Of a stretch of 64,000 nt of DNA, positions 22,480 through 43,148 are shown piece by piece (position 1 is the first letter of the stretch; every line of letters begins with the position of its first letter). A program made the translations under genes and the position numbers. The stretch is from Akkermansiaceae bacterium (GTDB taxonomy: Bacteria; Verrucomicrobiota; Verrucomicrobiia; Verrucomicrobiales; Akkermansiaceae): contig JAPKCM010000001.1 in NCBI GenBank assembly GCA_028822935.1, forward strand, positions 62,001 to 126,000. Reading direction: 5' to 3'. The notes beneath the pieces are model-generated. The model was not told the DNA's origin, made no database searches, and saw only the letters and a program-made list of their open reading frames with translations.

Positions 22480-22785
22480 AGGGTATGGCGTTCTGTGGAG
22501 GGCAGAATCAAAGCGGCGTGGGATCCAAAGCCAACGAAAAACCGAGCATCGAGGAAATGCTAACCGAGGCAGTCTCTCATTCGGGTTCGACTCGCCGGAA
22601 CGGGATTCCTCAAACACATGGTTCGGGGCATCGTAGGAACTCTGAAACAGATTGGAGAGGGCCGCCGGTCTTCTGATGAGATGCGCATTATTCTGGAATC
22701 CGGCGATTGCGAGGCAGTGGGACCGAGATTCCCCAGGGTAGGCTTCGCCAACCCCGGGCTTTGTGACGTAAGCCCGTTGGGCTAC
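22480..22785 (+). pseudogene. truA: Remnant of tRNA pseudouridine synthase A
   Basis: The frame beginning after the TAA at 22561 reads GTGFLKHMVRGIVGTL, followed by GEGRRS, IILESGD and AVGPRFP. This is the TruA C-terminal core (GxGFLxxMVRxIVGTLxxIGxGR, then the ILExxDRxxAGPTAP element). Upstream a different frame (MAFCGGQNQSG, KANEKPSIEEMLTEA) may be the preceding part, which implies a frameshift near 22570. The N-terminal two thirds and the catalytic aspartate are not recognisable. I infer a decayed truA, so a working copy should be elsewhere. It runs up to the stop of the convergent TPR gene. Confidence 0.55.
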
Positions 22786-24429: not shown

Positions 24430-25827
24430 TTACTTCTTGGTCGCTTCGAGCCATTTGTTGTACTCGGCGTGGGCGTAGTAGATGATGTTGACTCCGAGTT
24501 GGTAGCTGGATTCCCAGACTTCGCGCGGGACGCCGGAATGGCCGTCGGCCCAGGCGTCTCCAATATCGCCGGGATGATAATAGGCCACGAGTCGGCCGTT
24601 CACGACCCAACCGAGGGCGCTGGAGCGACCGTGGGGAGCGACGATGGGGAGGCGGGGCAGCGGGTAGGGAATGCGGTGGATGGTGTGGTCGAGGTAGACG
24701 GAGATTGGCTCGATTCTGGGGAGGACCTTTTGCATCATGGAAACGAACTGTCCTTCCCAACCGGAGCTCCCGCCGTTGTCGCCGAAAAGCATGCCGTGGT
24801 GCTCGAGGAGGTAGCTGCGCATGATTTTGAGTTCCTTGGCGCTCAGGTTGATGTTTTGCTGGCCGGTCATGTAGACCATGGGCGGGCTTTTGCGGGCCGG
24901 GAAGCTTTTGAGGCGACCGATTTCCATGGGCTCGGGTCGGTCGCTGACGGGGTGGCCGGTGCGGACTCCGTATTCGGTGAGGAGGTTCAAGTCGGAGCCA
25001 CGGTCCATGTCTTGTTCCCAGTCGCCGCCGTCGTATTTCAAACGGATGAAGCGGACTTTTCCTCGGGTGGTGCCAGCGGAGAAGCCGGCGCCATCGCCTT
25101 TTCCTTGGCCGATTTTGTAGAGGTGCTCGGTGACTTCGAGGACTTCCAGTTTGACGTCATCGATCGGTGGTGGATTGAAAAGGACGCTGCTGTAGGGGTT
25201 GATGACATATTTCTTATCGATGACCTTTTGGATTTTGACGATCTGCTTGAGCTGGGTCTCTTCGCCTCCGCCGAGTGGCGATTCGTAGAGGCTGCAGCCA
25301 GAGAGCCGGGTCAGGATGAGGGCCATGATGCCGAAGATGACAGTGTAGGTGAGGAGGGTGAAGAGGGATTGGCGAAGCTTGTTGTTCTTGTTGCCAAAAT
25401 ACCAAGCCACGAGTTGGCGAGGGTCCCAAGTGCGCTTTTTGGTATTTTTTTTGCTTGGTTCCGGCGCGCGTTTTGTTGCGCGGTCGATCCACCAGACGGC
25501 CCAGGCCAGCCCGAGGAAGAAGGCTCCGGCGGTGCCGAATTGGATCAGGGAGGCGGCGAGGGAGTAGGAGAAGTTGAGGAGGGGGAGATGGGCGAGGAGT
25601 TGCCAGAGGGGGAGGTAGCAAACGCTGAGGACGGCGCGGCGGACGACAGCGGTGGCATGACGCTGACGGCGGATCCAGTAGGAGCAGAGCGGGAGGGCGG
25701 AGAGGAATCCGATTGTGAGGGTCCACATCCCCAGTCGGAACCAGGCATGGGCATCGATCCAAAGCAGACACCAGAGGACCGCGTAGACTCCGGTCAGTAG
25801 GATGGGGCGTTTCGATTGAGTGAGCAT
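24430..25827 (-). CDS. DUF4159 membrane protein
   Basis: 465 residues. The N-terminal half is membrane: hydrophobic segments at about 8-25, 33-49, 67-82 and 90-110, then a basic cytoplasmic stretch (RATKRAPEPSKKNTKKR) and a further segment near 160-178. The C-terminal half is DUF4159: GKVRFIRLKYDGGDWEQDMD, the SPPMVYMTGQQNINLSAKEL strand-loop, LLEHHGMLFGDNGG and VVNGRLVAYYHPGDIGDAW. The domain has a class I glutamine-amidotransferase-like layout by its LRSYLxxGGxLFxDD element, with no obvious catalytic cysteine. Elsewhere the domain is seen near MoxR/DUF58/BatA genes; here it sits with ExbB/ExbD instead. Confidence 0.85.
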   Translation of the reverse strand: MLTQSKRPILLTGVYAVLWCLLWIDAHAWFRLGMWTLTIGFLSALPLCSYWIRRQRHATAVVRRAVLSVCYLPLWQLLAHLPLLNFSYSLAASLIQFGTAGAFFLGLAWAVWWIDRATKRAPEPSKKNTKKRTWDPRQLVAWYFGNKNNKLRQSLFTLLTYTVIFGIMALILTRLSGCSLYESPLGGGEETQLKQIVKIQKVIDKKYVINPYSSVLFNPPPIDDVKLEVLEVTEHLYKIGQGKGDGAGFSAGTTRGKVRFIRLKYDGGDWEQDMDRGSDLNLLTEYGVRTGHPVSDRPEPMEIGRLKSFPARKSPPMVYMTGQQNINLSAKELKIMRSYLLEHHGMLFGDNGGSSGWEGQFVSMMQKVLPRIEPISVYLDHTIHRIPYPLPRLPIVAPHGRSSALGWVVNGRLVAYYHPGDIGDAWADGHSGVPREVWESSYQLGVNIIYYAHAEYNKWLEATKK

Positions 25828-25852: not shown

Positions 25853-26317
25853 CTATTCCAGATCCTTCAAGAAATTATCTCCTTTGTCCTCGAGGGGATT
25901 CGTGTTCGGGGGAGCGGGGAGCTGGTCGTTGACGCCGAGGGGGGCCAGGTTGACTGGTTTTGCGGGGTCGGTGGGTTTTGGGTCAGTGACGGGAGGGGCT
26001 GGCGTCGGTGGGGCGGAGATTGCCTCGGCAACGGGCTCGGGGGCAGGTGTGGGTTCTTCTCCCAGGAAGTAGGGGAAAGCAGTGAGGGCGAAGATGGTTC
26101 CGGTGACGAGAATGATAGAAAGGATGGTGGCGCGGAAGAGCTGGCTGGAGGCGACGACTCCGAGCATTTCTTGAGGGCTTTTTCCTCGGAGCTGACGCAA
26201 GAACTCCTGCAGTTCCTGGACGGTGGCATTGGAGTTGGTTTTGAGCTCGCGAAGGTCGGCCTTGGTGCTGGCCATGGACTCACGTGATGCGTCGGTTTTT
26301 TTTGATTGGCCTTTCAT
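25853..26317 (-). CDS. Single-pass membrane protein with proline-rich periplasmic tail
   Basis: 154 residues, no family recognised. A polar, probably helical N-terminus (1-60, with DLRELKTNSNATVQELQEFL) precedes one transmembrane segment at about 62-84 (ATILSIILVTGTIFALTAF). After this comes a proline-rich stretch (EEPTPAPEPVAEAISAPPTP, then TDPKPTDPAKPV) and a short acidic end. The positive-inside rule puts the N-terminus in the cytoplasm. The topology is that of TonB without its folded C-terminal domain. The gene overlaps the second ExbD by 4 nt and precedes DUF4159 by 25 bp. A role as force transducer for the ExbB/ExbD motor is inference. Confidence 0.7.
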   Translation of the reverse strand: MKGQSKKTDASRESMASTKADLRELKTNSNATVQELQEFLRQLRGKSPQEMLGVVASSQLFRATILSIILVTGTIFALTAFPYFLGEEPTPAPEPVAEAISAPPTPAPPVTDPKPTDPAKPVNLAPLGVNDQLPAPPNTNPLEDKGDNFLKDLE

Positions 26318-26730
26318 CGTTTGGGAGAAGTTTCTTCGGGTTCGAGGATGTGAACGAGATCGCCACCGGCTTCACTGATGGCGGCGATGACGGGTTCGAA
26401 GTGGGAGGCTTGGGCCTCTTTGTGGACTTTGAGGAAGACGTTACGTTGGCCGGAGGGGGCGTCGCCGAGGAGCTTGGTGAGGGCGACGGAGAGTTCGTCC
26501 GGAGAGATCTCCTTACCGTCGAGGTAGGTCTTGTAGCCGGAGTCGATAGCGACAGAGGCGAGGGGTGCGGCAGCCATTTTGATGTCGGCGAGCTTGGCGG
26601 GTTGCCACTGAATGTGGCTGTCGTCCTGGGCGCGAGCGAGGATGACGAAGAAGATGAGGAGCAGGAAGCCGATGTCGCCCATTGCGAATGCTGGCACTGA
26701 GGCCGTCAGTTTTTTGCGGGGAAGTTTCAT
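26314..26730 (-). CDS. ExbD/TolR biopolymer transport protein (second copy)
   Basis: 138 residues. MKLPRKKLTASVPAFAMGD leads to a single transmembrane segment with the proton-path aspartate at about 19 (GDIGFLLLIFFVILAR). The periplasmic domain has the ExbD pattern YLDGKEISPDELSVALTKLL and ends HFEPVIAAISEAGGDLVHIL. The ATG overlaps the stop of the preceding ExbD by 4 nt. An in-frame extension back to 27390 overlaps ExbD-1 and ExbB in a wrong frame and was rejected. Two ExbD subunits with distinct periplasmic domains suggest a heteromeric stator. Confidence 0.9.
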   Translation of the reverse strand: MKLPRKKLTASVPAFAMGDIGFLLLIFFVILARAQDDSHIQWQPAKLADIKMAAAPLASVAIDSGYKTYLDGKEISPDELSVALTKLLGDAPSGQRNVFLKVHKEAQASHFEPVIAAISEAGGDLVHILEPEETSPKR

Positions 26731-27149
26731 TCGACGGTGATGGTGCGTTTGGATTCCAGTTCGAGAGTGAGGATGCCTCCGGCTTGTTCGATGACTTGGG
26801 AGACGCGGATCCAGATCGGGTAGGGCGTATTGGGCGCGCTTTTCACGACGACGACCCGGTCGGTTTCGCGGGTCTTTTTTTGGAGGGCGGCGTTGAGGCG
26901 TTGGGTGAACTCGGGGAGTTGGAGCGGGCTGCCGTCCAAGACGATGCTGGTGGGTGTGATGGAGACCTCGATGTTTTTGCTCTGTTCTTGCTGTTCCTTT
27001 TTCTCTTCGGTTTTCGGAAGGACTTGAGCGAGGCCGGTCTCCGGCTGCACGGCGGCGCAGACGAGGAAGAAGATGATGAGGATGAAGGCGATATCCGAGC
27101 TGGCGCTGGCCGGCGGATCGATGAGCATCTTGCCGCGTTTCAGTTTCAT
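26727..27149 (-). CDS. ExbD/TolR biopolymer transport protein (first copy)
   Basis: 140 residues. A short basic N-terminus (MKLKRGKM) is followed by the transmembrane helix with the conserved aspartate, SDIAFILIIFFLVCAAV at about 18-34. A charged EEKKEQQEQSK linker leads to a periplasmic ExbD domain (VSITPTSIVLDGSPLQLPEF, then VVVKSAPNTPYPIWIRVSQV). It starts 4 nt inside the ExbB stop, so ExbB and ExbD should be made in a coupled way. This is the canonical partner; the longer linker distinguishes it from the second copy. Confidence 0.92.
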   Translation of the reverse strand: MKLKRGKMLIDPPASASSDIAFILIIFFLVCAAVQPETGLAQVLPKTEEKKEQQEQSKNIEVSITPTSIVLDGSPLQLPEFTQRLNAALQKKTRETDRVVVVKSAPNTPYPIWIRVSQVIEQAGGILTLELESKRTITVE

Positions 27150-27847
27150 GAAGAGCCTTTGTCGAGAGTGAGGCGGAGGGTGACGACTTCGATGAGCTCG
27201 GCGGCGGAAGATTCCACTTGGAGGACGAAGTCGTTGATGACGCCGGTGAAGTAGTTGAAGGCCATGTAGGCGGGGATGCCAACGATGAGCCCGAAGGCAG
27301 TGGTGAGGAGGGCGACGCGGATCCCGGAGGCGGCAGCCTGCACGATGTTCTGAGTGCCGATGTTGGCCTCGATGTCCCCGAAGGCGACAATCATTCCCTG
27401 TACCGTGCCAAGGAAGCCGAGCATGGGGGCGACTGAGGCGATCGTGGCGAGGATGGGGAGGTGCTTCTCAAGGGCGGCGACGATGTTCACGCCGTAGTTT
27501 TCCATGCTCTTGATGACCTGTTGTTCCATCTGGGCCTGATCGTAGTTGAGGCGGCGGAGGACGAGGTATTTGCGAAGTCCGCTGGAGAGGACGGCGGGAA
27601 CGGGGCCACGGGCGGCATCGCAGAGTTGGAGCGATTCCTCGACTCTGTCCTCGGAGAGGAGGGTGACGACTTTTTCGCGGAGTTCGCTGGCGTCGGTTTC
27701 GAGGAGCTTGAGGCTGCGATAGCGTTCGATGATGACCGCGATGGCGAGGACGAGGAGCACGAGGAGGGGCCACATGAAGAGGCCGCCTTCGAGGAGGAGC
27801 TTGAGTGCGCCAGTGTCGAGGAAGCTGGTGTTGGCGAGAGGATTCAT
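27146..27847 (-). CDS. ExbB/TolQ/MotA proton channel family protein
   Basis: 233 residues, inner membrane. First transmembrane helix at about 22-42 (GLFMWPLLVLLVLAIAVIIE), a cytoplasmic segment with the TPR-like LLSEDRVEESLQLCDAARGP, then two more helices: HLPILATIASVAPMLGFLGT near 127-146 and ALLTTAFGLIVGIPAYMAFN near 178-200. The VAPMLGFLGTVQGMI and GLIVGIPAY motifs are diagnostic for the ExbB/TolQ pentamer that conducts protons. No TonB, TolA or TolB gene is in the window. The lipoprotein gene upstream ends 31 bp before its start. Confidence 0.95.
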   Translation of the reverse strand: MNPLANTSFLDTGALKLLLEGGLFMWPLLVLLVLAIAVIIERYRSLKLLETDASELREKVVTLLSEDRVEESLQLCDAARGPVPAVLSSGLRKYLVLRRLNYDQAQMEQQVIKSMENYGVNIVAALEKHLPILATIASVAPMLGFLGTVQGMIVAFGDIEANIGTQNIVQAAASGIRVALLTTAFGLIVGIPAYMAFNYFTGVINDFVLQVESSAAELIEVVTLRLTLDKGSS

Positions 27848-27878: not shown

Positions 27879-28244
27879 TTAGAATGGTGGCAGGGTTAAG
27901 AATCCAACGGAATCAAGCCAAATTAATTGAAGGTCAGCTGATTGGCTAACAGGATCAACGGAAAGAATTTGAAGTGATTCATTGTTACCGAGATTGAAAG
28001 GTTCTCCTTTTCCAAACCTGCCGGCAGTTGAGAGTGCCCTATCATAGCTTGAGTCTTTTCCGACTCCCCGGATAGTAATTGATTCCCTTGAAACTTTCTC
28101 AAGGGTGTAATGCCGATTGAGGCCTGTTTGAAAAATTCCTCCACGGTGAACTTTCTCTTTTTTGCTGTCATAATCATATCCGCACGACGGAATAAATGTG
28201 ACGCACAATGCGGAGAAGAGAGAGTATTTTAAATATTGATACAT
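27879..28244 (-). CDS. Small predicted lipoprotein
   Basis: 121 residues from the ATG at 28244. The N-terminus (MYQYLKYSLFSALCVTFIPSC) is a lipoprotein signal with the acceptor Cys at 21; proline at -2 is unusual but tolerated. The mature part is polar, with KEKVHRGGIFQTGLNRHYTL, GVGKDSSYDRAL and a C-terminal LQLIWLDSVGFLTLPPF. No family recognised. A longer frame to 28304 would put polar residues ahead of the signal. It lies between the giant TPR gene and ExbB on the same strand, with 31 bp on either side. AT content is higher than in its neighbours. Confidence 0.6.
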   Translation of the reverse strand: MYQYLKYSLFSALCVTFIPSCGYDYDSKKEKVHRGGIFQTGLNRHYTLEKVSRESITIRGVGKDSSYDRALSTAGRFGKGEPFNLGNNESLQILSVDPVSQSADLQLIWLDSVGFLTLPPF

Positions 28245-28275
28245 TGCGTGTTTGTCACAGGCCGCTGGAAGTGTC

Positions 28276-31200
28276 TCATTCGTCGAGATTTGCTTCTTTT
28301 TCAAACTGAGCTAAGAGCTCGGGAAGAGCAAGACGGCCACGGGAGTATTTGGCGGCATCGCTTTCGGGGAAGTCCCAGCGGCAGCGGTTGTAGCGGCGGA
28401 AGGCGTTGGGGATGTCCTTGCCCATGCGGTAGTTTTCGCCGGCCCAGAAGAGGGCTTGGGCGGTGAGTTTCTGCTCCGGGAAGCGCTTGGCAAAGGCGTC
28501 GAATGATTTCCCGCCTTTCACGAAGTCCTCGAGCTTGTAGTGGCACTGGCCGATGCGGAAGGCCATCTTGGGGGTCCATTCGTGGTTCGGGAAACGCTCG
28601 AGGAATTTTGAGCCGACCGAGGCGGCCACTGCGTAATCTTCCTTCACGTAGAAGTGCTCATTGATACGGAGCATGACGTTGGCGATGAGGGGGCTTTTGG
28701 GGTAGGTGCCGGCGAGGGTGACGTAGGCTTCGAGGGCTTCGTCGAGTTCCCCTGCTTCCTCGTGGCATTGGCCGAGTTTGTATTGGGAATCGGGGGCGAG
28801 GTTGTGGCCGGGGTGGTTTCGGACGATGGATCCGTAGGCCGCGATTGCTTCGTCCCAAGCTTCCATTTCTTGGGCGAACTGACCGAGGAGGTAGGAAACG
28901 CGCGGGGCGTATTTGGGATTTGGGTAATCGTCTTTGAGTTCGCGGAGGATCCGACGGCCGGAGGCTAGGTCGGCGGCGGCTTCCTCGTCGTGCTTGAGCC
29001 TGCGGTGGCTCTTGAAGAGCTCGAAGTAGCTTTCGGCAATGTGGAACTGGGTCTGGATGGCGAGTTCCTCGTCTTTGTAAACTTTGCTGAAGGCAGCCAT
29101 GACGCCATTGGTGCCGACCGCGACCGGGATCATCCGTTCGATGATGGGTCGGCCGTCCGGGTTTTGTGGGACGTTGTCGAGATAGCCGACGGTAATTTCA
29201 TCCCCGAAGAAGGCTTCGATGCGTCCCTCGAAGTTTCCGGCGGTGGGTTTTGCCTGGGCAAGGAGCGGAAAGGAGGCGCTGAAGACTCCGCTGTGGGTGA
29301 GGGTTTCTTCAAGCTCGATGGTTTCGTCCTCGCCGCTGGCGGTGACGATGCGGATGAGGGCTTTGTCCCGCTCGCTGGAAATGTCGCGGTCGGGGTCTTC
29401 GAGGCGGAGGAAGATTTTTTTACCGACGTGGGCGATCTCGGCGGGTTCCAAATACTCCTGATCGGTGATCTCGAGGGTGGCGGCTGAGAAGAGGGCGGCA
29501 GATGCTTTGAGTGAGGTCTGCGAGCCATCCGGTCGGGAGTCATCAGCGTAGCGAGCGGTGAAGGTGTCGCTACCGATGACGCTGAGGACAGCGAGAGGGG
29601 CGGTTGATTTGTCGGAGCCATCGTCGAGGACTGCTTCCGGATCGTCATCGACTGGAAGGATGATTCTTCCGAGGCCTCCTCTGGGTAAGGATCCGTCGGC
29701 GGGGACAATCGGCGCGCTTTCCAGACCACCGAGGAGGAGAGGGATTTGGCCGACGAAGCGGCCTTCGAAGAGGGCAGGGTTACGGGCTTCCGCGAGCGAT
29801 TCGTCGGAGGCTGCAAAGGAGCGGGAGAGGACGCATTGTACTTGGATTGTGGGTCCTTGGCTGGTGACGACATCGACCAGAACCGTGCTGCGCGAATCCT
29901 TGGCCTGATCAGGGTCGATGACCTCCACGGTGAGCGGGAGCCGGTATTCGACTTTGCTGACGTAGTCGTCGGGGCGGGGCCCATCGATCGGGATGAGTCG
30001 GGGCGCTCCTTCCACTGGCGTTTCGCTGTCCACGATTTGGATGCGGGCTTCGGTTGGTTCGTTGAGGAGGACGATCGTTTCACGATAGAAGGCATGGCCG
30101 GGGAAGGTGTTCTGGGTGTCCTTGTAGCGTAGGTAGACCTTGTCGCCTTTTTTGACGACGACCTTTCCTACGGTTTCTTCAGCTGCCGTATCGATTTCCG
30201 CTAGGAAGACGCCGGTTGAGGACTCGGTCTCGATGGCTGTGAGTTTGAAGGGTGGGTTGGCGTTGATCTGCACTTCGATTTCGACTTTGTCGCGATCGAG
30301 CCCGATATCAAAATCGAAATCGACGACCTCGGCGACGATCCGTTCACCGGGCTCGATGCGGAGGAGTTCCTTGCGGGATCCTTTTACCGATCCGTCGCCA
30401 TTGCGGGCAAAGTCATAACTGATCGGGGTGATTTTTCCGTTGTAGTAGGTGGCGGTGAGCGATTGTGTGAGGAGCCGGTTGCGTTGTTCGGCTCCTGCGG
30501 TGAGTTCATCAAGGTAGGAAACAGTGACGGTGTCGCCCGGGGCCAGTTCCAGGATCGTGTTGCTGGCGAGTTCCATGACGTCGGCTGCTGGCGGCATATG
30601 TTTACTGCCGCCTCCGTTGATCTCGACATTGTTGATCGCGATGGCCTCGCCGCGGTATTCGAGGAATTCGAAATCGAGGTAGCGGAGCTCGCGGGACGGC
30701 ATCGAGAGCGTCCAGCGGTTTTCCTCTTGTTTGATTTCGGCAGGTGGGGCGGGGGTGAATCTTTGAATATCGGCGGCGGTGCCGGGGTCGAAGTCGGCGG
30801 CGCCGAAGGGACGGATTGTGATGGCGGATGACTGTCGGTTTTCGCGGGCCCGGCGAGCTTCAACGGACTTTACCTCGGGGCTGGCGATGGTGAGGATGGT
30901 GAGGTCATGCACGCCACGGGGAGCGAAGATGTCGATGCTTTGTTCCCCGACGCCGACGGGAAGTTCGAGGTGTCCGTTGAACATGACGGCGGTGTTGCGG
31001 CCGGAGACTTCGATTCGGATGGCACCCTCGCGTTCTTGCACGAAGGGGCCGGACCACAAGAGAAAGTAAGCATCTGTCCCTTCTTCGGGCGCTTGCCATG
31101 AAAGGGTGTCGACCTTCTTGACTTTGCTGGGTTCGACCTTTTGCACCAGATCGACAATCTCTTTCCAAGAATACCTCTCTCGCAGGTTCTTGGCGGGCGT

Positions 31201-34200
31201 TTTGTAAACGCGGAGGTGCATGCCGGTCTCCGGGAATTTCAGGGGAGGGGCGGCGGCGGCGGGAGGGAATGCGGCGAGGTTGTACCAAAATCGTCCGTCG
31301 TGGCTGCCGCGAACCTGCATACGGACCGGAGCTTCTTGTTCGGCCTGCGGGGAGCTCAGGATAATCGATTCGGTCGGGCGGAGTTCCTTCATGTCGACCG
31401 AGAGCGACTTCGGGGCCGCGCCATCCGGTTCGCTGCGCCAAGCGGTATCGAGGGAATGGTCGATTGCCATGAGCGGGCTGTGGTCGAGCGCGGAGTCGGA
31501 GGCCTTGGCCCCTGCGGGAAGTTCACCGGTGCGGGCCATGCCGAGAAAGACTCCTCCGTGAAGGCTCTCTTCCTCAACCATGAGTTGGACCTCGTCACCA
31601 CTGGAGGAGGCGAGCTTGATGCTGACCTTGTCCTGGGCGGTGGTGAGGTCGCGGTCGCCGTCCTTGACCTGGAGGTAGATCAAGTTGCCGGGCTTGACCT
31701 GATTCTTTGGTCGGGATGCGGAGCGTGATTGCTCTTCTTGATTGCCGGCAATTTCCTTTTTCAGGGTGTCGGTGAAGGACGCGTCGTCTTCGTTGATGAT
31801 CTCGCTGCTGGCGATTTCAAGCGATCCGTCCGAGGCGATGCGCAGGCGGGTGTTGCTGAGGAATTCGAATTGGAACTGCTTCTTGAACTCCTCGGGGTAG
31901 TCCACCGTGATGACGTCGCCACCGGTCACCTGGAGGACGCCATCTCCGGCATTTGCTTCGCCGAGGATGGTCGGGAATTCGGTGAGGAAAATCCCTTTGC
32001 CTGCGCCTCCGCTGGTGAGGAAGGATTCCTCGCGATCATTTCCAGGCTCGGTGCGGACGACGACCGGGATGCGGGTGTCACCGCGACTGATGCCGAGGTC
32101 GGGGTCTTGCACCACGACCGAGAGGGCCTTGCCGGGGGTGTGCCAGAGCTTTGATTCCTGACCGAGGCGTCCGACGGTGCGGAGCGTTTCGAGTTGGGTT
32201 AGGAAGCGTTGTTCGATCCCATAGACTTCGGCGAGGTTGTAGAGTGTTTCGTTGGCAAGCTCGGCATCGGGGGCTTGCTCGAGGATGGTGAGGAAGATCC
32301 TGCGGGCTTCTTGGTTGTCGTCCTGACGGATCGCGAGGATTCCCTGGAGGAAGTTGGCGCGGATCGCGATTGCCGGATTGAGGTTCTCCGAGAGGTCGGT
32401 GAATATTTCCCCGGCCTGGTCATAGACTCGTTGCGCCATATAGGTTTCACCGATGCCAAAGCGGGCTTCGATGGCTTCGGGTTGATCTTTGTAGATGTTC
32501 AGGACGGTCGTGAATTCGGCACGGGCGATATCGAACTGTCTTGCCCTTTGGTAGTTGCGGGCGAGGAGGAGTTGGACGCGGGACTTGTCGCGAATGTCGA
32601 CCTTTTCGGACTCACCGAATTTGATCATCCACCCGCGGAGGATGTCCTCGGCTCGTAAGTGGTCTTCTGGAGTTCCTTGGGCGATGTGAATCTTCGCTCC
32701 GAAGAGGAGGAGTTCGACCGGGAGTTCATGACGGTGTTTGTCGAAGAGTTCCTTGTTCGCGTAGTAGGCCTGCTCGGCAAGTTCGGCTTCCCCAAGGCGG
32801 CGGTGGAGGATGATTTGCAAGAGGGGGGCGATGGGGCTGTCGGCAGGAATGTCCGCACTCAGGCTTCCCATTTTTCCGTAGGCCTTGCGGAGGAGGTTGC
32901 GGGCTGCTGTCGTTTCGGCATTGCCGACCGAGCGGATTGTGTTGAGGAGGCCGTTGAGAATGGTGGCACCGAGCTCCAGGTCCTCCCGGGCGAGGGCCGC
33001 CTGGGCATAGGGATAGATGCGTTTCCAGGATTCGTGGTGCTGGTCGGCTTGTTGAATGAGGTTTTGGGCGTGGAGGAGGCGGTCGATTGACTTGGGTTCG
33101 TTGGCGAGGAGTTCCATTCCGGCTTCGGTGCTGACCCGGCCGAGGCGGAGATCGCGGACCATACCAAAAACGCGGTTTTTCTTGTCCGTCGGCCAGTCTT
33201 CGGGCTTGGCATTGCGGGCGGTTTCCAACCAAGTGCGGGCCGGCCATTCGCCCATTCCCCAAGGGCGGAAGGGATCCCGGTCGGCGCGGGTGCGGGATTT
33301 CTTGAGGAGCGATGCCATCGCGTCGAGATTGTCGGCGAGGAAGAGTAAGTTACCGAGGTCAGCAGCATAGGTTCCGTGGTGGTCGGTGTCGGCGGCGGCG
33401 CGGGACTTGAGAAATGTTTGGGCAGCCGCTGGCTCGAGGATTGAGGCGAGGCGACGTGCGCAAGACACGTATTCCGGATCGTTGGGGTCCAGATCCATGT
33501 GCGACTTCCACCATGCGGCCGCTTCGGTTTTCATGCCGAGTTCGTTCATGACGTCGCCAATGCGGGTGCAGTGGGCGGAGTTGTTTTTGCTTTGCTTTGC
33601 CGATTGCGTGATCCAAGGGATCGCCTTCCTGATGATTTTCTCGTCCTTCGTCTCTACGAGTCGATACCAGGTGTCGTAGTGGGACGGGGCAGCGGGAATG
33701 GAGAGGAGGTGTTTTGCCGCGGTGAGCTTAGTGGTCGCGACTTCTTCTTTCTGAGTGTAAGCGGCGGCTTCGAGCCATTGCTCGGCAGCGTTGAGGTCCT
33801 TGGGGAATTCTTTGCAGAGATTCTCGTAGTGCCTCGCGGAGCTGGCCTTCGATTTACCGCCGAGGTGGTGGCGGTAGACATACGCCAGGCGTGCCAAGAC
33901 GAGGTGCCGTTGCTCCTTGTTGAGTTTTTGCTGGAGGAGCTGTTGGCATGCTTGTCCGGATTTCCCCCCGTTTTCGCGGGTGCTCTTCCAGAGCTTTGTC
34001 GCGGAATCGTTCTGGTGGGCCTTCTTTGCGGCCTGCCAAGTGCGATTACGTTGTTTGTCCTTTGGCGCACGTTTCCAGACACGGTCCTGGAAACCCTCGA
34101 GGTGTGGGAAGGCTTTCGCGCTGGCACTCACGGCGGCGAGATCTTTGCGGAAGGTTTCCTCACCGGTCGCGGATTCATAGAGGAAGCTCGTGATTTCCTC

Positions 34201-35415
34201 CGACCAGCCATCGGCGCTGGGAGATTTTGCGAGATATTCGAGCGCCATGCGTCTGGCTTTGGCGGTGTCCTTCAGGCCGTCGCGATAGACATCGAGGGCG
34301 AGGACGGCACGCATCGGACCTGCTCCGTTGGGGTTCTGGCCGATCAGCTTAAGGAGACCCTGCTCTGCGCGTTTGAGGTTCTCACCACACCAGCGAACGT
34401 AGGTCCGGGCCAGGTCGCTGATGACGACATTTTGGAGGAGAATATCTTCCGCGATGGCGAGTGCGCGAGTGGTGTCCTTTGCGGCGGCGGCGGCCTCGGC
34501 AGCGCGGGCAAGGGGGGCGTAGCGATCCTCGTGGTGCGGATAAGCGGCGAGGTAGCGGCGGGCTTCGGCCTCGATTTCCGAGGGGGCTTTGGTCGCACTG
34601 ATCATGGCCTCGACAAGACTCCGGTGGATGTCATCGTGACCGGGAGTGAGCGCTTTTCGGAATGATTGGATGGCATTCTCAAACTGTCCAAGGCTGGACT
34701 GAAAGCGTCCTGTTTTGAACCAAAGTTCACGTTTCGTGATCGCGTTGAGCGGAGCGTTACGACGCACAAGAGCTTTGGCGATTTGCAGGCCCTCGGCCCA
34801 CTGCTCGGACCGCTCGGCGGCATACATCCCTTGAAAGCCCACGCCGGTGAGGAGCGGTTCGGCGGGGAGCTTGGCGACCATCGCGACCGCGAGGGAAGAG
34901 GCTTTTTTATAAGTGGTTCCGTTGTTGCCTTGGATGAACAAGCGCATGGCGTTGACACCCTGATCGGTTCTGCTGCTGTTTTGCCAGATTACAAGACGTT
35001 CGGCAGCGGCGAGGTTGCCACGACCGGTGTGTTCATAGGCGGTGGCGATTCGGTCGCGGACTTTGTTGGTCAGGGAATGTTTCGGAAAAATTTCGAGGAA
35101 TTGCCGTCCGGTCACGATGACGTCTTCGTGGCGGGCGGTGACGGCGTAGCCGGCGATGAGCCTCAGCATCATGGCGGCTCGTTCCGGATTTTCGGTCTGG
35201 GCGCGCGCGAACTTTCCGGTGGTCCGGATGAGTCCGAAGACTTGCTCGTTTTCCCAATAGAGATCGGTGAGCTCGCTCATGAGTTTCGCCCCGGTGGGCG
35301 AGGACTCGGCGGTCTCCTTGAGTTTGGCCTCCAGGTCAGCGGCCTGGTCGGCTTGGACCGGGACAATGAGTGCGAAAACTAGAACGAGGGCGAGATGGGG
35401 AATGAGTGTTTTCAA
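28276..35415 (-). CDS. Giant secreted TPR and repeated beta-domain protein
   Basis: 2,379 residues. Signal peptide LIPHLALVLVFALIVPVQA (cut near 22). About 25-1090 is tandem TPR/alpha-solenoid, for example AVTARHEDVIVTGRQFLEIF and FDIARAEFTTVLNIYKDQPE. From about 1092 to 2085 come at least five copies of a beta domain whose core is DxD....D...V, then a GxF turn and a GDxITVxYxD edge: near 1092-1175, 1245-1295, 1695-1787, 1825-1897 and 1995-2085. A discoidin-like segment lies near 1305-1380 (SLDTAWRSEPDG, RMQVRGSHDGRFWYN) and another beta domain near 1424-1510. TPR resumes from about 2120 (AIAAYGSIVRNHPGHNLAPD). The start overlaps the upstream TPR gene by 4 nt. A scaffold role is inference. 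Confidence 0.85.
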   Translation of the reverse strand: MKTLIPHLALVLVFALIVPVQADQAADLEAKLKETAESSPTGAKLMSELTDLYWENEQVFGLIRTTGKFARAQTENPERAAMMLRLIAGYAVTARHEDVIVTGRQFLEIFPKHSLTNKVRDRIATAYEHTGRGNLAAAERLVIWQNSSRTDQGVNAMRLFIQGNNGTTYKKASSLAVAMVAKLPAEPLLTGVGFQGMYAAERSEQWAEGLQIAKALVRRNAPLNAITKRELWFKTGRFQSSLGQFENAIQSFRKALTPGHDDIHRSLVEAMISATKAPSEIEAEARRYLAAYPHHEDRYAPLARAAEAAAAAKDTTRALAIAEDILLQNVVISDLARTYVRWCGENLKRAEQGLLKLIGQNPNGAGPMRAVLALDVYRDGLKDTAKARRMALEYLAKSPSADGWSEEITSFLYESATGEETFRKDLAAVSASAKAFPHLEGFQDRVWKRAPKDKQRNRTWQAAKKAHQNDSATKLWKSTRENGGKSGQACQQLLQQKLNKEQRHLVLARLAYVYRHHLGGKSKASSARHYENLCKEFPKDLNAAEQWLEAAAYTQKEEVATTKLTAAKHLLSIPAAPSHYDTWYRLVETKDEKIIRKAIPWITQSAKQSKNNSAHCTRIGDVMNELGMKTEAAAWWKSHMDLDPNDPEYVSCARRLASILEPAAAQTFLKSRAAADTDHHGTYAADLGNLLFLADNLDAMASLLKKSRTRADRDPFRPWGMGEWPARTWLETARNAKPEDWPTDKKNRVFGMVRDLRLGRVSTEAGMELLANEPKSIDRLLHAQNLIQQADQHHESWKRIYPYAQAALAREDLELGATILNGLLNTIRSVGNAETTAARNLLRKAYGKMGSLSADIPADSPIAPLLQIILHRRLGEAELAEQAYYANKELFDKHRHELPVELLLFGAKIHIAQGTPEDHLRAEDILRGWMIKFGESEKVDIRDKSRVQLLLARNYQRARQFDIARAEFTTVLNIYKDQPEAIEARFGIGETYMAQRVYDQAGEIFTDLSENLNPAIAIRANFLQGILAIRQDDNQEARRIFLTILEQAPDAELANETLYNLAEVYGIEQRFLTQLETLRTVGRLGQESKLWHTPGKALSVVVQDPDLGISRGDTRIPVVVRTEPGNDREESFLTSGGAGKGIFLTEFPTILGEANAGDGVLQVTGGDVITVDYPEEFKKQFQFEFLSNTRLRIASDGSLEIASSEIINEDDASFTDTLKKEIAGNQEEQSRSASRPKNQVKPGNLIYLQVKDGDRDLTTAQDKVSIKLASSSGDEVQLMVEEESLHGGVFLGMARTGELPAGAKASDSALDHSPLMAIDHSLDTAWRSEPDGAAPKSLSVDMKELRPTESIILSSPQAEQEAPVRMQVRGSHDGRFWYNLAAFPPAAAAPPLKFPETGMHLRVYKTPAKNLRERYSWKEIVDLVQKVEPSKVKKVDTLSWQAPEEGTDAYFLLWSGPFVQEREGAIRIEVSGRNTAVMFNGHLELPVGVGEQSIDIFAPRGVHDLTILTIASPEVKSVEARRARENRQSSAITIRPFGAADFDPGTAADIQRFTPAPPAEIKQEENRWTLSMPSRELRYLDFEFLEYRGEAIAINNVEINGGGSKHMPPAADVMELASNTILELAPGDTVTVSYLDELTAGAEQRNRLLTQSLTATYYNGKITPISYDFARNGDGSVKGSRKELLRIEPGERIVAEVVDFDFDIGLDRDKVEIEVQINANPPFKLTAIETESSTGVFLAEIDTAAEETVGKVVVKKGDKVYLRYKDTQNTFPGHAFYRETIVLLNEPTEARIQIVDSETPVEGAPRLIPIDGPRPDDYVSKVEYRLPLTVEVIDPDQAKDSRSTVLVDVVTSQGPTIQVQCVLSRSFAASDESLAEARNPALFEGRFVGQIPLLLGGLESAPIVPADGSLPRGGLGRIILPVDDDPEAVLDDGSDKSTAPLAVLSVIGSDTFTARYADDSRPDGSQTSLKASAALFSAATLEITDQEYLEPAEIAHVGKKIFLRLEDPDRDISSERDKALIRIVTASGEDETIELEETLTHSGVFSASFPLLAQAKPTAGNFEGRIEAFFGDEITVGYLDNVPQNPDGRPIIERMIPVAVGTNGVMAAFSKVYKDEELAIQTQFHIAESYFELFKSHRRLKHDEEAAADLASGRRILRELKDDYPNPKYAPRVSYLLGQFAQEMEAWDEAIAAYGSIVRNHPGHNLAPDSQYKLGQCHEEAGELDEALEAYVTLAGTYPKSPLIANVMLRINEHFYVKEDYAVAASVGSKFLERFPNHEWTPKMAFRIGQCHYKLEDFVKGGKSFDAFAKRFPEQKLTAQALFWAGENYRMGKDIPNAFRRYNRCRWDFPESDAAKYSRGRLALPELLAQFEKEANLDE

Positions 35416-37592
35416 AATCCTGCTTTTTTGAGCGCTTCGACGATTTTATTGGCCTCCGAGGCGATCTCGCTTTCGGGGTAGTCGTTGATGAGTTGTTCAA
35501 ACTTGCGGCGGGCCTCCGGCTTGCGTTTGAGTTTGTAGAGACAGCGACCGTAGTTGAAGAGGATGACGTCGAGGAAGTTCGCGTCGGGGTGGTCTGAAAG
35601 GACGTTCTCGAAGACATCGACGGCCCGGGCGTAGTCTTCTTTCTTGTAATAAAAGGCAGCCATTTTGGCGACTGAGTCTCCGACCCGGCCGGAGTCGGGG
35701 AATTGTTCGTAAACTTTCTGGTAGGCGAGGAAGGCCTTCTCGAAGAGCTGCGCGGATTGGCCGGCGGTTGCCTTCAGCGCCATTTCTTCGTAACATTCGC
35801 CGGTGAAAAATTGGCCTTCGCCCCGCAATGGGCTGGTAGGGAGCTTGGCAATACTGGAGTAGAGGCTGATGGCACGCGGGAAGTTCTCACGCTTTCGTTC
35901 GACGTGGGCTTGTTGCAACATCGCTTCGTCCACGAAGGAGCTGGCGGGGAATTCGTTGAGGAGGCGACGGCTCATGCCGAGGGCCAGGTCGAGTTTATCC
36001 ATCGCAAAGTAGATTCGCCAAAGTTGCACGTAGGTTTCCTCGAGGAGCTTGCCGCCGACCTCGCGAGCCTGTGCGTGAATCTCTTCACAGACATCGAGGG
36101 CCTCGGTGTATTTCAAGTCGGCTTTGTCGTTGAGCCCGAATTCCTTATAGTAGTTGCCGACCTCGGTGAGGGCCGAGGCGGTTCGGAGTTGGGTTTTGAG
36201 GCGGAGTTCCTCGTCGGAAATATCGGTGCGGGTGACGCGGACTTCGCCGAGGTTTCCCTCAATAATCCTGGTTTCCGCAGTGCGAACGATTGCGCCCTCG
36301 CTGAGGTTTTGGTCGTCGCGATAGATCAGGCGGATCGTCTGGCCGGGTTCGCCGGTGAGGGTGTCTTTGGCGGTGCCGAGGCGGAGGGGGATGGCGAGAC
36401 GGAAGGTGCCTTTTTGCTCTTGTTCCCGCAGAGTCACGGGGACTGCGCGGACCATGAGGAGCGGATCGATTTGCGATTTGATATCTTCGCCTTCCGGTCC
36501 TTCGGTGAGCTCTCCGCTGGCGACGCGCTTGGCGAGTTCATCGTCGATTTCGTCAGCCGTTTTGCGTCGAAAAATTTGGATCGTGGCCTCGATTCTGTCC
36601 GCTCCTTCGGTGGTATCGTGATCGGCGTCGGTGACCTGGAGGTGGAGTGATTTTCCGAGGACGGCGGCGGGGAGGTCGCGGAGATAGGACCCGTCGGTGA
36701 TGCGGGCGACTCCGTTGCCTACGACGACAACTTCTTTGAGGCGTTTTTCGTCGAAGCTTTTCTCGGCGGTGTGGGCGTCGATGTAAGTGACGGTGATTTT
36801 GTCACCTCCGCGGACTTCGAGAGTTCCGTTGTTCGGCACTGCTTTGTCGAGGCGAGTGGGGATGCGGCCTAAGGCGATGCGCGCATTTCGTCCGACTGGA
36901 TCACAGAAGAGGGTTTCTTCGTCACCGCCTTTGGTGCGACAACGGACTTCGATCTTGGTGCCTGGTTCAAGAATGGCGAAGTCCTGATCATCGATCTTGA
37001 CATAGAGGCGTTTGCCCGCTTCGACTTTTTCGACAAGCGAGTCTTTGGATGAGAGAGCGGTGCCCACTTTTTCGAGGGCTTCGATGGCCCGGCTGTAGTG
37101 GTCGAGTTTGAAATGACCGAGGCCGATATAGTAATAGGCTTCATTGACCTCGGGGGAGGTGGGGAACTTTTCAATGACGTCACGCATGATGCTGAAGCAC
37201 TTCCCGTAGTTACCGGCTTCGTAGAAACAGGTGCCGGTATTCAGGAAGGCGTAGGCGCGTTTTTCATCGTTTTCGTTGCTCTCGATTGCGGCGGCTTCGT
37301 AGTGGAGCCGGGCTTTGTCGAAGTCCTTGATTTCCTTGAGGAGATGATCACCGAGGCGCAGATGGGCTTCGAAGCGAAGCTGGCTGCGCGGGTAGCGCTC
37401 GACCACCGATTCCCAAACCTCGAGGGCTTTTTCGTTTTCCCCGAGTTCAAGGCGGGCATCGCCAGCTTGCAAGAGCTTGCGGGCCGCGCGGTCCTCGATG
37501 ATGGAGCCGCGCTCAAGGGGTTTCTGCGATTGGGCGAGGAGTGGCAGGGCGAGGAAAAGAGGGAGGAAGAGGGGAGCGATGAAGTGACTCAT
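35412..37592 (-). CDS. Secreted TPR protein with two repeated beta domains
   Basis: 726 residues. Signal peptide MSHFIAPLFLPLFLALPLLA. TPR fills about 35-190 (ALEVWESVVERYPRSQLRFE, FLNTGTCFYEAGNYGKCFSI) and 470-726 (AVDVFENVLSDHPDANFLDV, KFEQLINDYPESEIASEANK). Between them are two copies of the beta domain found in the giant downstream protein, near 200-280 (VKIDDQDFAILEPGTKIEV, GGDKITVTYIDAH) and 315-445 (LQVTDADHDTTEGADRIEA, GQTIRLIYRDDQN). It is thus a short version of the giant: TPR, beta domains, TPR. It overlaps the giant gene by 4 nt and starts 5 bp after the DUF1501 stop, which ties it to the cytochrome-c/DUF1501 pair. Confidence 0.87.
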   Translation of the reverse strand: MSHFIAPLFLPLFLALPLLAQSQKPLERGSIIEDRAARKLLQAGDARLELGENEKALEVWESVVERYPRSQLRFEAHLRLGDHLLKEIKDFDKARLHYEAAAIESNENDEKRAYAFLNTGTCFYEAGNYGKCFSIMRDVIEKFPTSPEVNEAYYYIGLGHFKLDHYSRAIEALEKVGTALSSKDSLVEKVEAGKRLYVKIDDQDFAILEPGTKIEVRCRTKGGDEETLFCDPVGRNARIALGRIPTRLDKAVPNNGTLEVRGGDKITVTYIDAHTAEKSFDEKRLKEVVVVGNGVARITDGSYLRDLPAAVLGKSLHLQVTDADHDTTEGADRIEATIQIFRRKTADEIDDELAKRVASGELTEGPEGEDIKSQIDPLLMVRAVPVTLREQEQKGTFRLAIPLRLGTAKDTLTGEPGQTIRLIYRDDQNLSEGAIVRTAETRIIEGNLGEVRVTRTDISDEELRLKTQLRTASALTEVGNYYKEFGLNDKADLKYTEALDVCEEIHAQAREVGGKLLEETYVQLWRIYFAMDKLDLALGMSRRLLNEFPASSFVDEAMLQQAHVERKRENFPRAISLYSSIAKLPTSPLRGEGQFFTGECYEEMALKATAGQSAQLFEKAFLAYQKVYEQFPDSGRVGDSVAKMAAFYYKKEDYARAVDVFENVLSDHPDANFLDVILFNYGRCLYKLKRKPEARRKFEQLINDYPESEIASEANKIVEALKKAGF

Positions 37593-37597
37593 ATTTT

Positions 37598-38851
37598 TCA
37601 GGCGAACAATTCGTGGATGGGAGTCGCGCCCTTCGGGACGACGCGCATCGGGCGGCCTTGGGGAGTGAAGAGTTCTTTATCTTGGTTGATTCCAAGGGCA
37701 TGGCACATGGTGGCGTGGAGGTCAGAAACTTTGACTGGGCGTTCGGCGGGAGCCATGCCGTCTTCGTCCGAGGCACCGACGATGGAACCTCCCTTGATGC
37801 CGCCGCCGGCCATCATGGCGCTAAAGCAGCGAGCCCAGTGATCGCGTCCGCCGCCGTCGTTGATACGGGGGGTGCGTCCGAATTCGCTGAGGACTACCAC
37901 GAGCGTTTTGCTGAGCATGCCGTTCGCCTTGAGGTCGGAAAGGAGAGATGCGATGGCGGGGTCCATCGCGGCGCCGTGGTTGCGCATGGCGTCGAAGATG
38001 TTGCCGTGATTGTCGAAACCGCCGCGGTTGACTTGCACGAAGCGGACTCCTTTTTCGACGAGGCGTCGGGCCAATAAGGCTCCGCGTCCGAACTCGGTGT
38101 CGCCGTATTTCGCGACTGTTTTGGGATCTTCATCTTCGAGTTCGAAGGCCTTCAGGGCGGGGCTCTCCATGAGATTAACGGCGTCCTTTAAGGCGGTCTG
38201 GGAGGCTTTTAGTTCCTTTGATCCTTTCTCGCCGGAGGTGCGGGCGTTCATTTTTTCGAGGATCTGGAGACGTTGCATTCCACGGGCGTGGCTGATGCCT
38301 TCGGGAAAGGCGAGGTAGGGGTCTTTTTGGCCGGGACGGCCGACAAAGTAGGCTTCACACTGCTGCCCGAGATAGCCGGCACGGGCCGGTTGCCCGCTGA
38401 TGCTGACGAGGGCTGGGAGGTCGCCGAGTGGTTCGCGTTCGTGCACCACCAATGAGCCGAGGCCGGGGTGCATGATGTTGGGCGATTGGTTGAATCCGGT
38501 TTGGAGTTCATACTGCGCCCGGCCGTGGTCGCCATTGGTTCCGGCAATGGAACGAATGAGCGCGCCGTGATGCATTTGCTTGGCAAGTTGCGGAAAAATT
38601 TCCGAGATCTCCATGCCATCCACAGAGGTCTTGATGGGATTGAACTCGCCCTGAACCTTGCGGCCGGGCTTAGGATCCCAAGTGTCGAGGTGACTCATGC
38701 CACCGCTGTTCCAAAAGAGAATAACATGCTCGGCCTGAGCTCTACTGGGAGCGGTTTGGGCCAAAAGTTGGCTGATGGGCATGCCGAGGAGGCTCGCACT
38801 GAAGGTTTTCAGCATGCGGCGTCGGTTGATTTGGTAATCGTTACAGGACAT
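37598..38851 (-). CDS. DUF1501 protein with Tat-like signal
   Basis: 417 residues from the ATG at 38851. A twin-arginine-like leader NRRRMLKTFSASLLGMPISQ starts near 9. The core has HVILFWNSGGMSHLDTWDPK, SIAGTNGDHGRAQYELQTGF, RLVEKGVRFVQVNRGGFDNH, VVLSEFGRTPRINDGGGRDH and a MMAGGGIKGG turn, the DUF1501 pattern. It lies 19 bp after the cytochrome-c gene and 5 bp before the 726-residue TPR gene, all in one direction. The paralogue at 20579-22027 has the same motifs but a longer middle. Confidence 0.92.
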   Translation of the reverse strand: MSCNDYQINRRRMLKTFSASLLGMPISQLLAQTAPSRAQAEHVILFWNSGGMSHLDTWDPKPGRKVQGEFNPIKTSVDGMEISEIFPQLAKQMHHGALIRSIAGTNGDHGRAQYELQTGFNQSPNIMHPGLGSLVVHEREPLGDLPALVSISGQPARAGYLGQQCEAYFVGRPGQKDPYLAFPEGISHARGMQRLQILEKMNARTSGEKGSKELKASQTALKDAVNLMESPALKAFELEDEDPKTVAKYGDTEFGRGALLARRLVEKGVRFVQVNRGGFDNHGNIFDAMRNHGAAMDPAIASLLSDLKANGMLSKTLVVVLSEFGRTPRINDGGGRDHWARCFSAMMAGGGIKGGSIVGASDEDGMAPAERPVKVSDLHATMCHALGINQDKELFTPQGRPMRVVPKGATPIHELFA

Positions 38852-38870
38852 TTTTTGAAGGGAGATGAAA

Positions 38871-41354
38871 TTAAGGGAGGAAGCGGAATTCGTTGGAGTT
38901 GATAAGGGCCCAGCGGAGGTCGGCCATGCCTTGGGAATCGTCATTGACGATGGCGCGGGCGTCGGATTTTTCTTCGGGAGTTGGGAGGCGGGTCAGGATT
39001 TCTTGGTATGCCCAATCGATGGCGAGGTTTTGGTCTTTTTTCAGGAGATGATGAAGGGGTTCCAAGGTGCCGACGCGGGAGGCTTCGTGAGTCATGCGAC
39101 CGTTGAGCATCATGAGTTGTTGGCGGAGTGAGGATGCTTCATCGCGGAATTCACCGAGTCCAGTGCGGGCCGGTTGGCCGAAGACGCGGAGGAAATGCGC
39201 GGGCGGAGCGGGGGTGGCCATGCGCATGGCGCTGTCGAAACGGGGGTTGTCATCCACTGTTTCGGTGACCGTCTCAGTTTTGTATTTCATCACCTTGCGC
39301 TGCTCGTCTTTTTGCATAGCGGCCATTTCCTCGGCTTTGATTTGCTCGTCAGACTTTTCTCGCATCGATACGAGTTCGGTTTGTTCCTTACTGCTGAGGA
39401 TAGAACTGAAGTCGATCTTCAGTGATGATTCGAGGTCGTATCCGTCACCGCGCATGGCGGGTTGCCCGGCCATCGTCGTTACTTTCTCTGCGTCTCCTGC
39501 TTCGACCATCGTGAATTCTCCGGTTGCGATCTGGATCTCACGGGAGACCTGTTTGTTGTTCGCGCCTTTTGGCCATTTGAAATCCCCGAGGTGTCCGGCG
39601 ACGACGATGCTGTCGTAGAGGACTTCCCCGAGCATCCGGCGGGACGGGGCGGCCGCGAAATTCAATTCGCTTTTTTCGCGTAATTCGAAGGGAGTGTCGG
39701 CGGGTAGGGCGGAGCGGCGGTAGACGTCGGAGAGGGTGATGATCCGTATCAGAGTCCGGAAATCATAGCCGCTGGCGATGAACTCCTGCGCGAGGAAGTC
39801 GAGCGTGGTGGGATGATGTAGTCCGTTGTAGTCGGAAAAGTTGTCGAGCGGTTCAACGAAACCGTGACCGATCAATTCGGCCCAGACACGGTTGACGAAG
39901 GCCCTAGCAAAGTAGTCGTTGCGGGGATCGGTGATGAGTTGCGCCAGTTGATCACGTAGTTCGCTGGAGCGGTAGAGGTCGCCATGGACGTTCAGCTTTT
40001 GGCTTTCCTTTTTAGCCTCCTCCAGCACCGGATCGATGGGCCGTCCGACATTTGGTTCGACGGCATCGAGGAGGGCGTCGAGGGAGGCGGTATCATCATC
40101 GGTGGAGTTCTTCTGCTCTTGCGAGAGACGAACCGCTTCAAAGCGTTGGATGTGGTGGGGAGTTTTTTCGAAGTGGCCTAACTGGAAGGGAAATCGTGGC
40201 TTGACTGGTTTGCGGTCACGAGCTTCGGCCTTATCCTCGGGCGGCCAGAGGACCGTCATTTCGTTTCCTTCCGTGGTGTAGACTGACCCGCCACGGCGTC
40301 GGCTCTCCATCTTTTTGGTTTTGCCAAAGAAGGCGGCGAGGTCGTAGAAATCTTTCTGGGCCCAGTCATCGAAGGGATGGTCGTGGCACATCGCGCAGCC
40401 GATCTGAACCCCAAGGAAAATCTGTGAGGTGGCAGCTGCGAGTTCCATGGGTTGGGCATCATCGCCCAAAATATATCCGACTGCCGGATTCGAATTGGCC
40501 CGTCCTGAGGCGCTGATGAGCTCCCGAACCAAGACATCGTAGGGTTTTTTCTGTTCGATGGATCCGTGGAGGTAGGCGAGTAATTGATTGCCTCCGGTAA
40601 CGTTGGAGCGGACTCGTAACATGTCGGCCATGAAGACCGTCCAGCGGTCCGCGAAGCGCGGCTGGGAGGTGAGTTTTGCAATGAGCTTCGTCTGTCGATT
40701 TTCGCCCCAGCCTTCATACTCCCGAACTTCGTTCATCGTCGGAATCCGGCCGATGAGGTCGATGGTGGATCGTCGGAGAAAGGCCGCGTTATTGAGAGTT
40801 TGCGTGGTGACGACTCCGGTGCCGGCATTTTCCCGCCGCAGGATATCGTCGAGCATCGCCGCAGCCTCGATGTTCGAGCCAGGGGCCTTCTGTGGCAGGG
40901 CGACCCGTTTGGGCGCTTCCGGCTTCCGCTCGGTGAGAGTTACACCTTTCGGCCATTTTGCACCGGCTTCGACCCAAGCATCCAGAAGGGCGACTTCCTC
41001 GGGTTTTAAAGCCCGTCCTTCATCCGGCATCACTCCTTCGTCGATCGGGCGGAGATGGATTCGGACCAAAAGCTCGCTCTTTGCGGAATCGCCCGGCACG
41101 ACAGCGTCGGCAGTATCTCCGCCTTCCAAGAATTTCTCATGCGTATCCATTCGCAGCCCTCCCTTGATCTTTGATGCTGTATGACAGCGCACGCAATTAC
41201 TTTCTAGGATAGGCTGGATCTGCTTTCGAAAGTCCGGGGCAGCGGCTAAAACGGGCGAAACCGCTGCCAGAACGCTCAGAAAGAGAATGATGAAATGTAG
41301 TTGGCTCAAGGTGTGAGGAATTACGAATGAACTTCCAAAGATTCTAACAACCAC
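38871..41354 (-). CDS. Secreted cytochrome-c/DUF1549/DUF1553 protein
   Basis: 827 residues from the GTG at 41354; a TTG at 41309 just before the hydrophobic stretch is an alternative, and no in-frame ATG exists before the signal peptide (HFIILFLSVLAAVSPVLA). The haem motif CVRCH is at 54-58. DUF1549 follows with IDLIGRIPTMNEVREYEGWG and CAMCHDHPFDDWAQKDFYDL, giving a second CxxCH; DUF1553 has RNDYFARAFVNRVWAELIGH and LDFLAQEFIASGYDFRTLIR. It has a methionine- and lysine-rich insert near 630-690 (DEQIKAEEMAAMQKDEQRKV) absent from the 997-residue paralogue. First gene of the long minus-strand cluster. Confidence 0.9.
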   Translation of the reverse strand: MVVRIFGSSFVIPHTLSQLHFIILFLSVLAAVSPVLAAAPDFRKQIQPILESNCVRCHTASKIKGGLRMDTHEKFLEGGDTADAVVPGDSAKSELLVRIHLRPIDEGVMPDEGRALKPEEVALLDAWVEAGAKWPKGVTLTERKPEAPKRVALPQKAPGSNIEAAAMLDDILRRENAGTGVVTTQTLNNAAFLRRSTIDLIGRIPTMNEVREYEGWGENRQTKLIAKLTSQPRFADRWTVFMADMLRVRSNVTGGNQLLAYLHGSIEQKKPYDVLVRELISASGRANSNPAVGYILGDDAQPMELAAATSQIFLGVQIGCAMCHDHPFDDWAQKDFYDLAAFFGKTKKMESRRRGGSVYTTEGNEMTVLWPPEDKAEARDRKPVKPRFPFQLGHFEKTPHHIQRFEAVRLSQEQKNSTDDDTASLDALLDAVEPNVGRPIDPVLEEAKKESQKLNVHGDLYRSSELRDQLAQLITDPRNDYFARAFVNRVWAELIGHGFVEPLDNFSDYNGLHHPTTLDFLAQEFIASGYDFRTLIRIITLSDVYRRSALPADTPFELREKSELNFAAAPSRRMLGEVLYDSIVVAGHLGDFKWPKGANNKQVSREIQIATGEFTMVEAGDAEKVTTMAGQPAMRGDGYDLESSLKIDFSSILSSKEQTELVSMREKSDEQIKAEEMAAMQKDEQRKVMKYKTETVTETVDDNPRFDSAMRMATPAPPAHFLRVFGQPARTGLGEFRDEASSLRQQLMMLNGRMTHEASRVGTLEPLHHLLKKDQNLAIDWAYQEILTRLPTPEEKSDARAIVNDDSQGMADLRWALINSNEFRFLP

Positions 41355-43001: not shown

Positions 43002-43148
43002 AAAATAAACGATTCTCAAGAGAGAATCGTTCTTTTGGCCGAAAGGCGAACAAAGAATGCTGAGAGATTTCTGAGAAAGATTGATTTTAGATGTCACAAA
43101 TACGGACTCCGGGGCCAATATGGTGTTGTAGTCATTCCGTTTTATCTT

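Follow-up and report, generated by a model that had tools for sequence, protein, structure and literature searches.

In the 64,000-nucleotide stretch of an Akkermansiaceae genome analysed here (the window), we found that a repeated beta domain, assigned by profile and structure comparison to the Ig-like superfamily of S-layer proteins, is built into two adjacent TPR proteins that stand within a conserved motor operon. The new part is the place of this domain in that operon. The two proteins, called here the giant and the short protein, had been described in an earlier note on this DNA, whose coordinates for both genes proved exact and whose quoted motifs were all present; what it overlooked were the conserved motor operon and an insert of carbohydrate-binding type within copy B of the domain. 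The features are listed in the table, in the order of transcription.

Table. Genes, domain copies and the nested insert of the operon, with window coordinates.
Feature	Position in protein	Window coordinates	Strand	Remarks
PSCyt1/PSCyt2/PSD1 gene, operon head		38871..41354	-	Pfam
DUF1501 gene		37598..38944	-	listed ATG overlaps PSCyt; true start probably downstream
Short protein gene		35412..37592	-	726 aa; Pfam TPR_6 E 1.3e-33
Copy F	short 190-290	36723..37025	-	leave-one-out 53.2 bits; iterated profile E 4.8e-34
Copy G, internal insertion	short 311-435	36288..36662	-	leave-one-out 24.0 bits
Giant protein gene		28276..35415	-	2379 aa; TTG start
Copy A	giant 1094-1192	31840..32136	-	leave-one-out HMM 40.3 bits
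Copy B, first half	giant 1240-1301	31513..31698	-	strands 1-4
Insert in copy B: CBM32/F5_F8-type-C-like, interrupted by PA14-like domain		30583..31512	-	model, Foldseek, VIA
Copy B, second half	giant 1612-1652	30460..30582	-	strands 5-7
Copy C	giant 1687-1783	30067..30357	-	leave-one-out HMM 38.3 bits
Copy D, degenerate, with insertion	giant ~1828-1967	29515..29934	-	leave-one-out 11.3 bits
Copy E	giant 1996-2098	29122..29430	-	leave-one-out 53.7 bits; structure predicted
141-aa protein, no family		27879..28304	-	close relatives only
ExbB/TolQ-type motor subunit		27146..27847	-	E 2e-27; LGTVQGM motif retained
ExbD/TolR-type subunit 1		26727..27149	-	E 1.9e-17; SDIAF... transmembrane Asp
Second ExbD-like subunit		26314..26730	-	translation and conserved place; GDIGF... 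transmembrane Asp
154-aa protein		25853..26317	-	one TM helix, then proline-rich tail; no Pfam family
Membrane protein, C-terminal DUF4159 domain		24430..25827	-	E 2.3e-29
500-aa TPR protein		22782..24284	-	in operon, after DUF4159 gene

Both proteins begin with a Sec-type signal peptide. In the short protein it is followed by a TPR region, copies F and G and a second TPR region (sequence and Pfam), and the giant consists of a TPR array (about residues 1-1090), copies A to E (1093-2100) and a second TPR array (about 2110-2379). The two proteins showed neither a lipobox (sequence read by eye) nor a surface anchor such as SLH, and the best reading of their sequences is that both are periplasmic, probably as long scaffolds. 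The two genes share four bases (TTGA, 35412-35415) in a stop/start overlap. A 4-base overlap was the commonest spacing between short and giant genes (22 of 61 loci), suggesting that their translation is coupled.

The claim that the two proteins share a beta domain was borne out: we delimited, by eye, seven copies of one unit of about 100 residues, five in the giant and two in the short protein. Each copy was scored with an HMM built from the remaining six, with 1000 shuffles of its own letters as control. The results showed that the copies align and that all seven outscored their shuffles, the best of which reached 5.9-12.2 bits. Copy D was the weakest; the iterated profile alone returned only fragments of it (E 0.06-0.17), and it was aligned with copy F by profile-profile comparison. 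Copies B and G appeared as two profile segments because they are interrupted, copy B by about 310 residues, and both halves of copy B together scored 48.6 bits in the leave-one-out comparison. The iterated profile recovered 112 copies or part-copies across 29 homologous proteins. After loci from 80 further contigs were added, 51 of 52 long giants showed five profile segments and 78 of 81 short homologues showed three, and all six matches in the window's own genome fell within the short and giant genes.

Pfam searches with both full proteins and with 89 individual copies found no family that recurs across the copies; the best recurrent match was DUF4785_2nd (9 of 89, E 1.4e-4). Comparison with cadherin-like, Big and S-layer domains had been suggested. 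Cadherin and Big domains were rejected as the identity, Pfam giving no match over cut-off in the copies, and S-layer domains were matched by both profile and structure searches. The NCBIfam model of the Kustd1514 S-layer glycoprotein (NF052345.1) matched the giant with an E-value of 8.7e-10 and 34 of the 89 single copies (best 4.8e-8). In the reciprocal direction, profile A2 picked Planctomycetota ORFs with Kustd1514-model scores of 2263 and 2084 bits. Against the PDB, the profile of 89 copies had one credible match, 8c8k_A, the S-layer protein of Nitrosopumilus maritimus (NmSLP; E 0.002), with further partial, weaker matches along the same chain.

Structure prediction pointed to the same relatives. 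The region around giant residues 1995-2085, which the earlier note had singled out for prediction, was modelled with AlphaFold2 as copy E and gave a seven-strand Ig-like sandwich (pLDDT 81.5, pTM 0.74). Foldseek with this model returned 8c8k_A as the best match (E 1.9e-4), and VIA-align gave Z scores of 10.1 and 10.0 against NmSLP domains 1372-1498 and 1506-1616, the first unrelated rows standing at Z 8.3. Since the profiles match in both directions and the structures match as well, the domain belongs, on sequence and model evidence, to the S-layer-type Ig-like superfamily (NmSLP/Kustd1514), at about 20% identity. The earlier note did not recognise the domain as a named family, and Pfam has none for it, but it does have relatives, namely the homologous Ig-like domains found in S-layer proteins. 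Copies of the beta domain were also seen in a 3030-aa protein with C25-type peptidase, SdrD_B and DUF11 domains (locus L152, 2805-11897).

The opening acids of the domain, D2007 and D2009, were invariant in the 89 copies, and an acidic residue was present at D2080 in 99%, at D2072 in 98%, at E2029 in 80% and at D2017 in 76%. Four acidic positions are thus nearly invariant, which makes calcium binding by the conserved acids plausible. The NmSLP segment aligned by the 89-copy profile retains the acids of the DxD and GD...YxD motifs. If the domain follows standard Ig topology, with its AB and EF loops at the same pole, D2007, D2009, D2017 and D2072 could make up a single putative site. Among the relatives, the NmSLP layer is dissolved by EGTA (PMC11153153), and the Ig-like anammox homologue Brosi_A1236 assembles into sheets with calcium (PMC7482068).

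The earlier proposal that the two proteins are one duplicated TPR-beta-TPR design at different sizes was upheld by hhalign, in which giant residues 1817-2320 are colinear with residues 185-713 of the short protein (D-E-TPR against F-G-TPR: probability 99.7, E 3.5e-26). In BLAST, divergent homologues of the short protein also aligned, over their TPR-F-G part, with giant residues 962-1269 (TPR-A-B). Between Planctomycetota and the window, mean identity was 43-60% for copies at the same position and 21-37% for copies at other positions. Because same-position identity is the higher, the copy positions would have been fixed before the Planctomycetota/Verrucomicrobiota split, or else a single, very early transfer would have carried the whole locus across. 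In a tree of 83 short proteins, made by a quick method and containing some long branches, all Planctomycetota fell together on the same side of a branch supported by an SH-aLRT of 99.

Downstream of the giant, the LGTVxGM motif of ExbB and the transmembrane Asp of both ExbDs were intact on reading the sequences. The operon yielded no transducer of the TonB/TolA type carrying a known C-terminal domain, and the only TonB_C match of the genome sits on another contig. With its single TM helix and proline-rich periplasmic tail, and lacking a C-terminal domain of the TonB type, the 154-aa protein might act as a pared-down force transducer. The genome holds seven ExbB-type genes in all. Two further observations concern the surroundings: a 2184-aa bacterial alpha-2-macroglobulin (MG2, A2M, bMG10) is encoded divergently from the PSCyt operon at 42612-49166 (+), and 17548-22027 (+) holds, by eye, a similar-looking pair of a 997-aa cytochrome-type/PSD-like protein followed by a 482-aa DUF1501-like protein.

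Among 80 loci, 47 had ExbB placed after the giant, spanning Verrucomicrobiota, Planctomycetota and one Kiritimatiellota record. Many of the other loci stop at a contig edge and a few do not; at L080 and L081, for example, ExbB is not directly downstream. At four loci the giant had seemed to be missing, which was rejected, as it lies elsewhere in those four genomes. A second, paralogous operon type (TPR-short-giant(s)-ExbB-ExbD-ExbD-DUF4159, lacking PSCyt and DUF1501) was seen at five loci, in several cases with two giants; a protein search of the window's own genome did not turn it up. The domain occurred in 15 of 193 sampled Verrucomicrobiota genomes of at least 90% completeness, nearly always in the form of this gene pair; the listed genomes of genus g11, which belongs to the same family, had none. 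The system is found in a minority of genomes in both phyla. These sequence comparisons indicate that the gene pair and motor operon are syntenic, old and common to Verrucomicrobiota and Planctomycetota. In planctomycete genomes with several pairs, the neighbours of the short and giant genes were mostly housekeeping genes, 2 of 10 being carbohydrate-related, and a polysaccharide-locus (PUL-like) context is not claimed for that reason. One planctomycete genome of 9.0 Mb carries the beta domain at about 10 separate loci, and its giants are 2630-2991 aa long.

The interruption of copy B falls between strands 4 and 5. In a model of giant residues 1235-1672 (pLDDT 85.8, pTM 0.75), the flanks of the insert reproduce the strand series of copy E, so that all seven strands are kept. 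The insert itself showed a discoidin jelly-roll fold of the CBM32 kind (4a44, Z 17.7, 126 aligned residues, rmsd 2.0) and contains in turn a PA14-like domain (Foldseek 6x8a, E 3e-6). The Pfam F5_F8_type_C/CBM32 score of the insert was 25.2 bits, below the curated cut-off of 28.2, and on reading the sequence, the DD sugar/calcium motif was not visibly kept in the PA14-like part. From the modelled folds, we infer that this nested head binds a glycan. Most planctomycete giants are about 130 residues longer than the window's in the copy-B region.

Taken together, we consider it somewhat probable that the operon encodes a PMF-driven trans-envelope complex in which the two proteins are periplasmic scaffolds with a glycan-binding head. 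In such a complex, an Ig-like sandwich of the S-layer kind would have been recruited very early in Planctomycetota/Verrucomicrobiota as a stiff spacer between TPR arrays. The scaffolds, two periplasmic proteins whose genes overlap, would be physically coupled to an inner-membrane motor of ExbB and two ExbDs powered by the proton gradient. CpoB/YbgF-type TPRs dock partners around Tol, and the TPR arrays here may dock partner proteins. The tandem Ig domains would bridge the periplasm, probably stabilised by Ca2+ at the conserved Asp loops, and the nested CBM32/PA14-like head of giant copy B would grip a glycan, which may be substrate, peptidoglycan or surface polysaccharide. Several of the findings above speak against this complex: the operon yielded no recognised TonB/TolA-type transducer, at some loci ExbB is not directly downstream or the giant stands apart, the PA14-like part does not visibly retain its DD motif, few neighbours are carbohydrate-related, and the system occurs in a minority of genomes.

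The process served could be uptake: a machine for polysaccharides or other macromolecules whose CBM32/PA14 head binds a surface glycan while the motor pulls it through the outer membrane is possible, though doubtful. The sugar-binding-type folds of the giant and the motor genes agree with it, as do the many loci of the single planctomycete genome, which recall Sus-type families. It would also account for the PMF-dependent uptake of macromolecules by planctomycetes, in which dextran uptake is active, is blocked by CCCP and is stated to be of uncharacterised mechanism (PMC5394234). However, the adjacent genes are mostly not CAZymes, no outer-membrane channel was recognised in the operon, and most genomes of both phyla do without the system. 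An envelope-integrity role, in which TPR scaffolds replace TolA, TolB and Pal in a Tol-Pal-like tether, appears unlikely. The ExbB/TolQ and ExbD/TolR pairs are present and the TPR domains score 118 and 103 bits, above the NCBIfam tol_pal_ybgF cutoff of 90.1, but Pfam and NCBIfam scans found no TolA, TolB or Pal among the operon proteins, most genomes of the phylum lack the system, and with seven ExbB-type genes in the genome, another set may fill this role. That both proteins are S-layer or surface-coat subunits of a Ca2+-dependent extracellular lattice, with the ExbBD neighbours serving export or being incidental, is very unlikely: although S-layer proteins are the nearest relatives of the domain and related S-layers assemble calcium-dependently (PMC11153153, PMC7482068), CpoB/BamD-type TPR arrays, unusual in lattice proteins, flank both proteins, no SLH or other anchor was found, and the two fixed-design proteins adjoin the motor in three phyla.

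We propose tentatively that the operon specifies an undescribed proton-driven trans-envelope machine of Planctomycetota and Verrucomicrobiota, which would combine S-layer-type Ig arrays set between TPR scaffolds with a nested glycan-binding head to move or grip macromolecules, possibly as part of PMF-dependent macromolecule uptake. A literature search returned no account of this operon apart from one partial match (PMC12204202), and no mention of DUF4159 was found in the literature searched.

Compared with known systems, NmSLP (PDB 8c8k, 8c8o; PMC11153153) shares with the domain its fold, strand order, DxD opening, G-[VI]-F strand and GDxxT..Y.D edge strand, at the low identity given above, but it builds an extracellular lattice and consists of tandem Ig-like domains with no TPRs. 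The Kustd1514 family of anammox planctomycetes (NF052345.1) is homologous at the domain level in both search directions, whereas its members are extracellular, about 1600 aa long, covered end to end by the S-layer model and free of TPR matches. Surface-layer-type Ig domains, the material of archaeal and anammox extracellular coats, are now tied to large TPR scaffolds encoded next to an ExbB/ExbD motor; a domain family missing from Pfam is thereby pointed out, and the operon offers specific, testable genes for trans-envelope force systems in these bacteria. A 2025 survey (PMC12204202) reported clusters of the form TPR-tolQ-tolR-tolR-vWA in PVC bacteria and described them as of unknown function. 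According to the passages of that survey consulted, the clusters resemble the window operon in having a TPR gene, TolQ and two unlike TolRs in order, with a TM-tethered vWA force transducer downstream; the later window genes encode the 154-aa TM protein and a DUF4159 protein in which Pfam finds DUF4159 and not VWA. The same passages describe no beta domain, giant/short pair or CBM32/PA14 head, and the clusters may or may not be identical with the window operon. With Tol-Pal (TolQ, TolR, CpoB/YbgF), the window operon has in common a motor pair (MotA_ExbB, ExbD) and periplasmic TPR proteins. Unlike Tol-Pal, it has no match to TolA, TolB or Pal, and its TPR proteins are far larger and bear Ig-like arrays.
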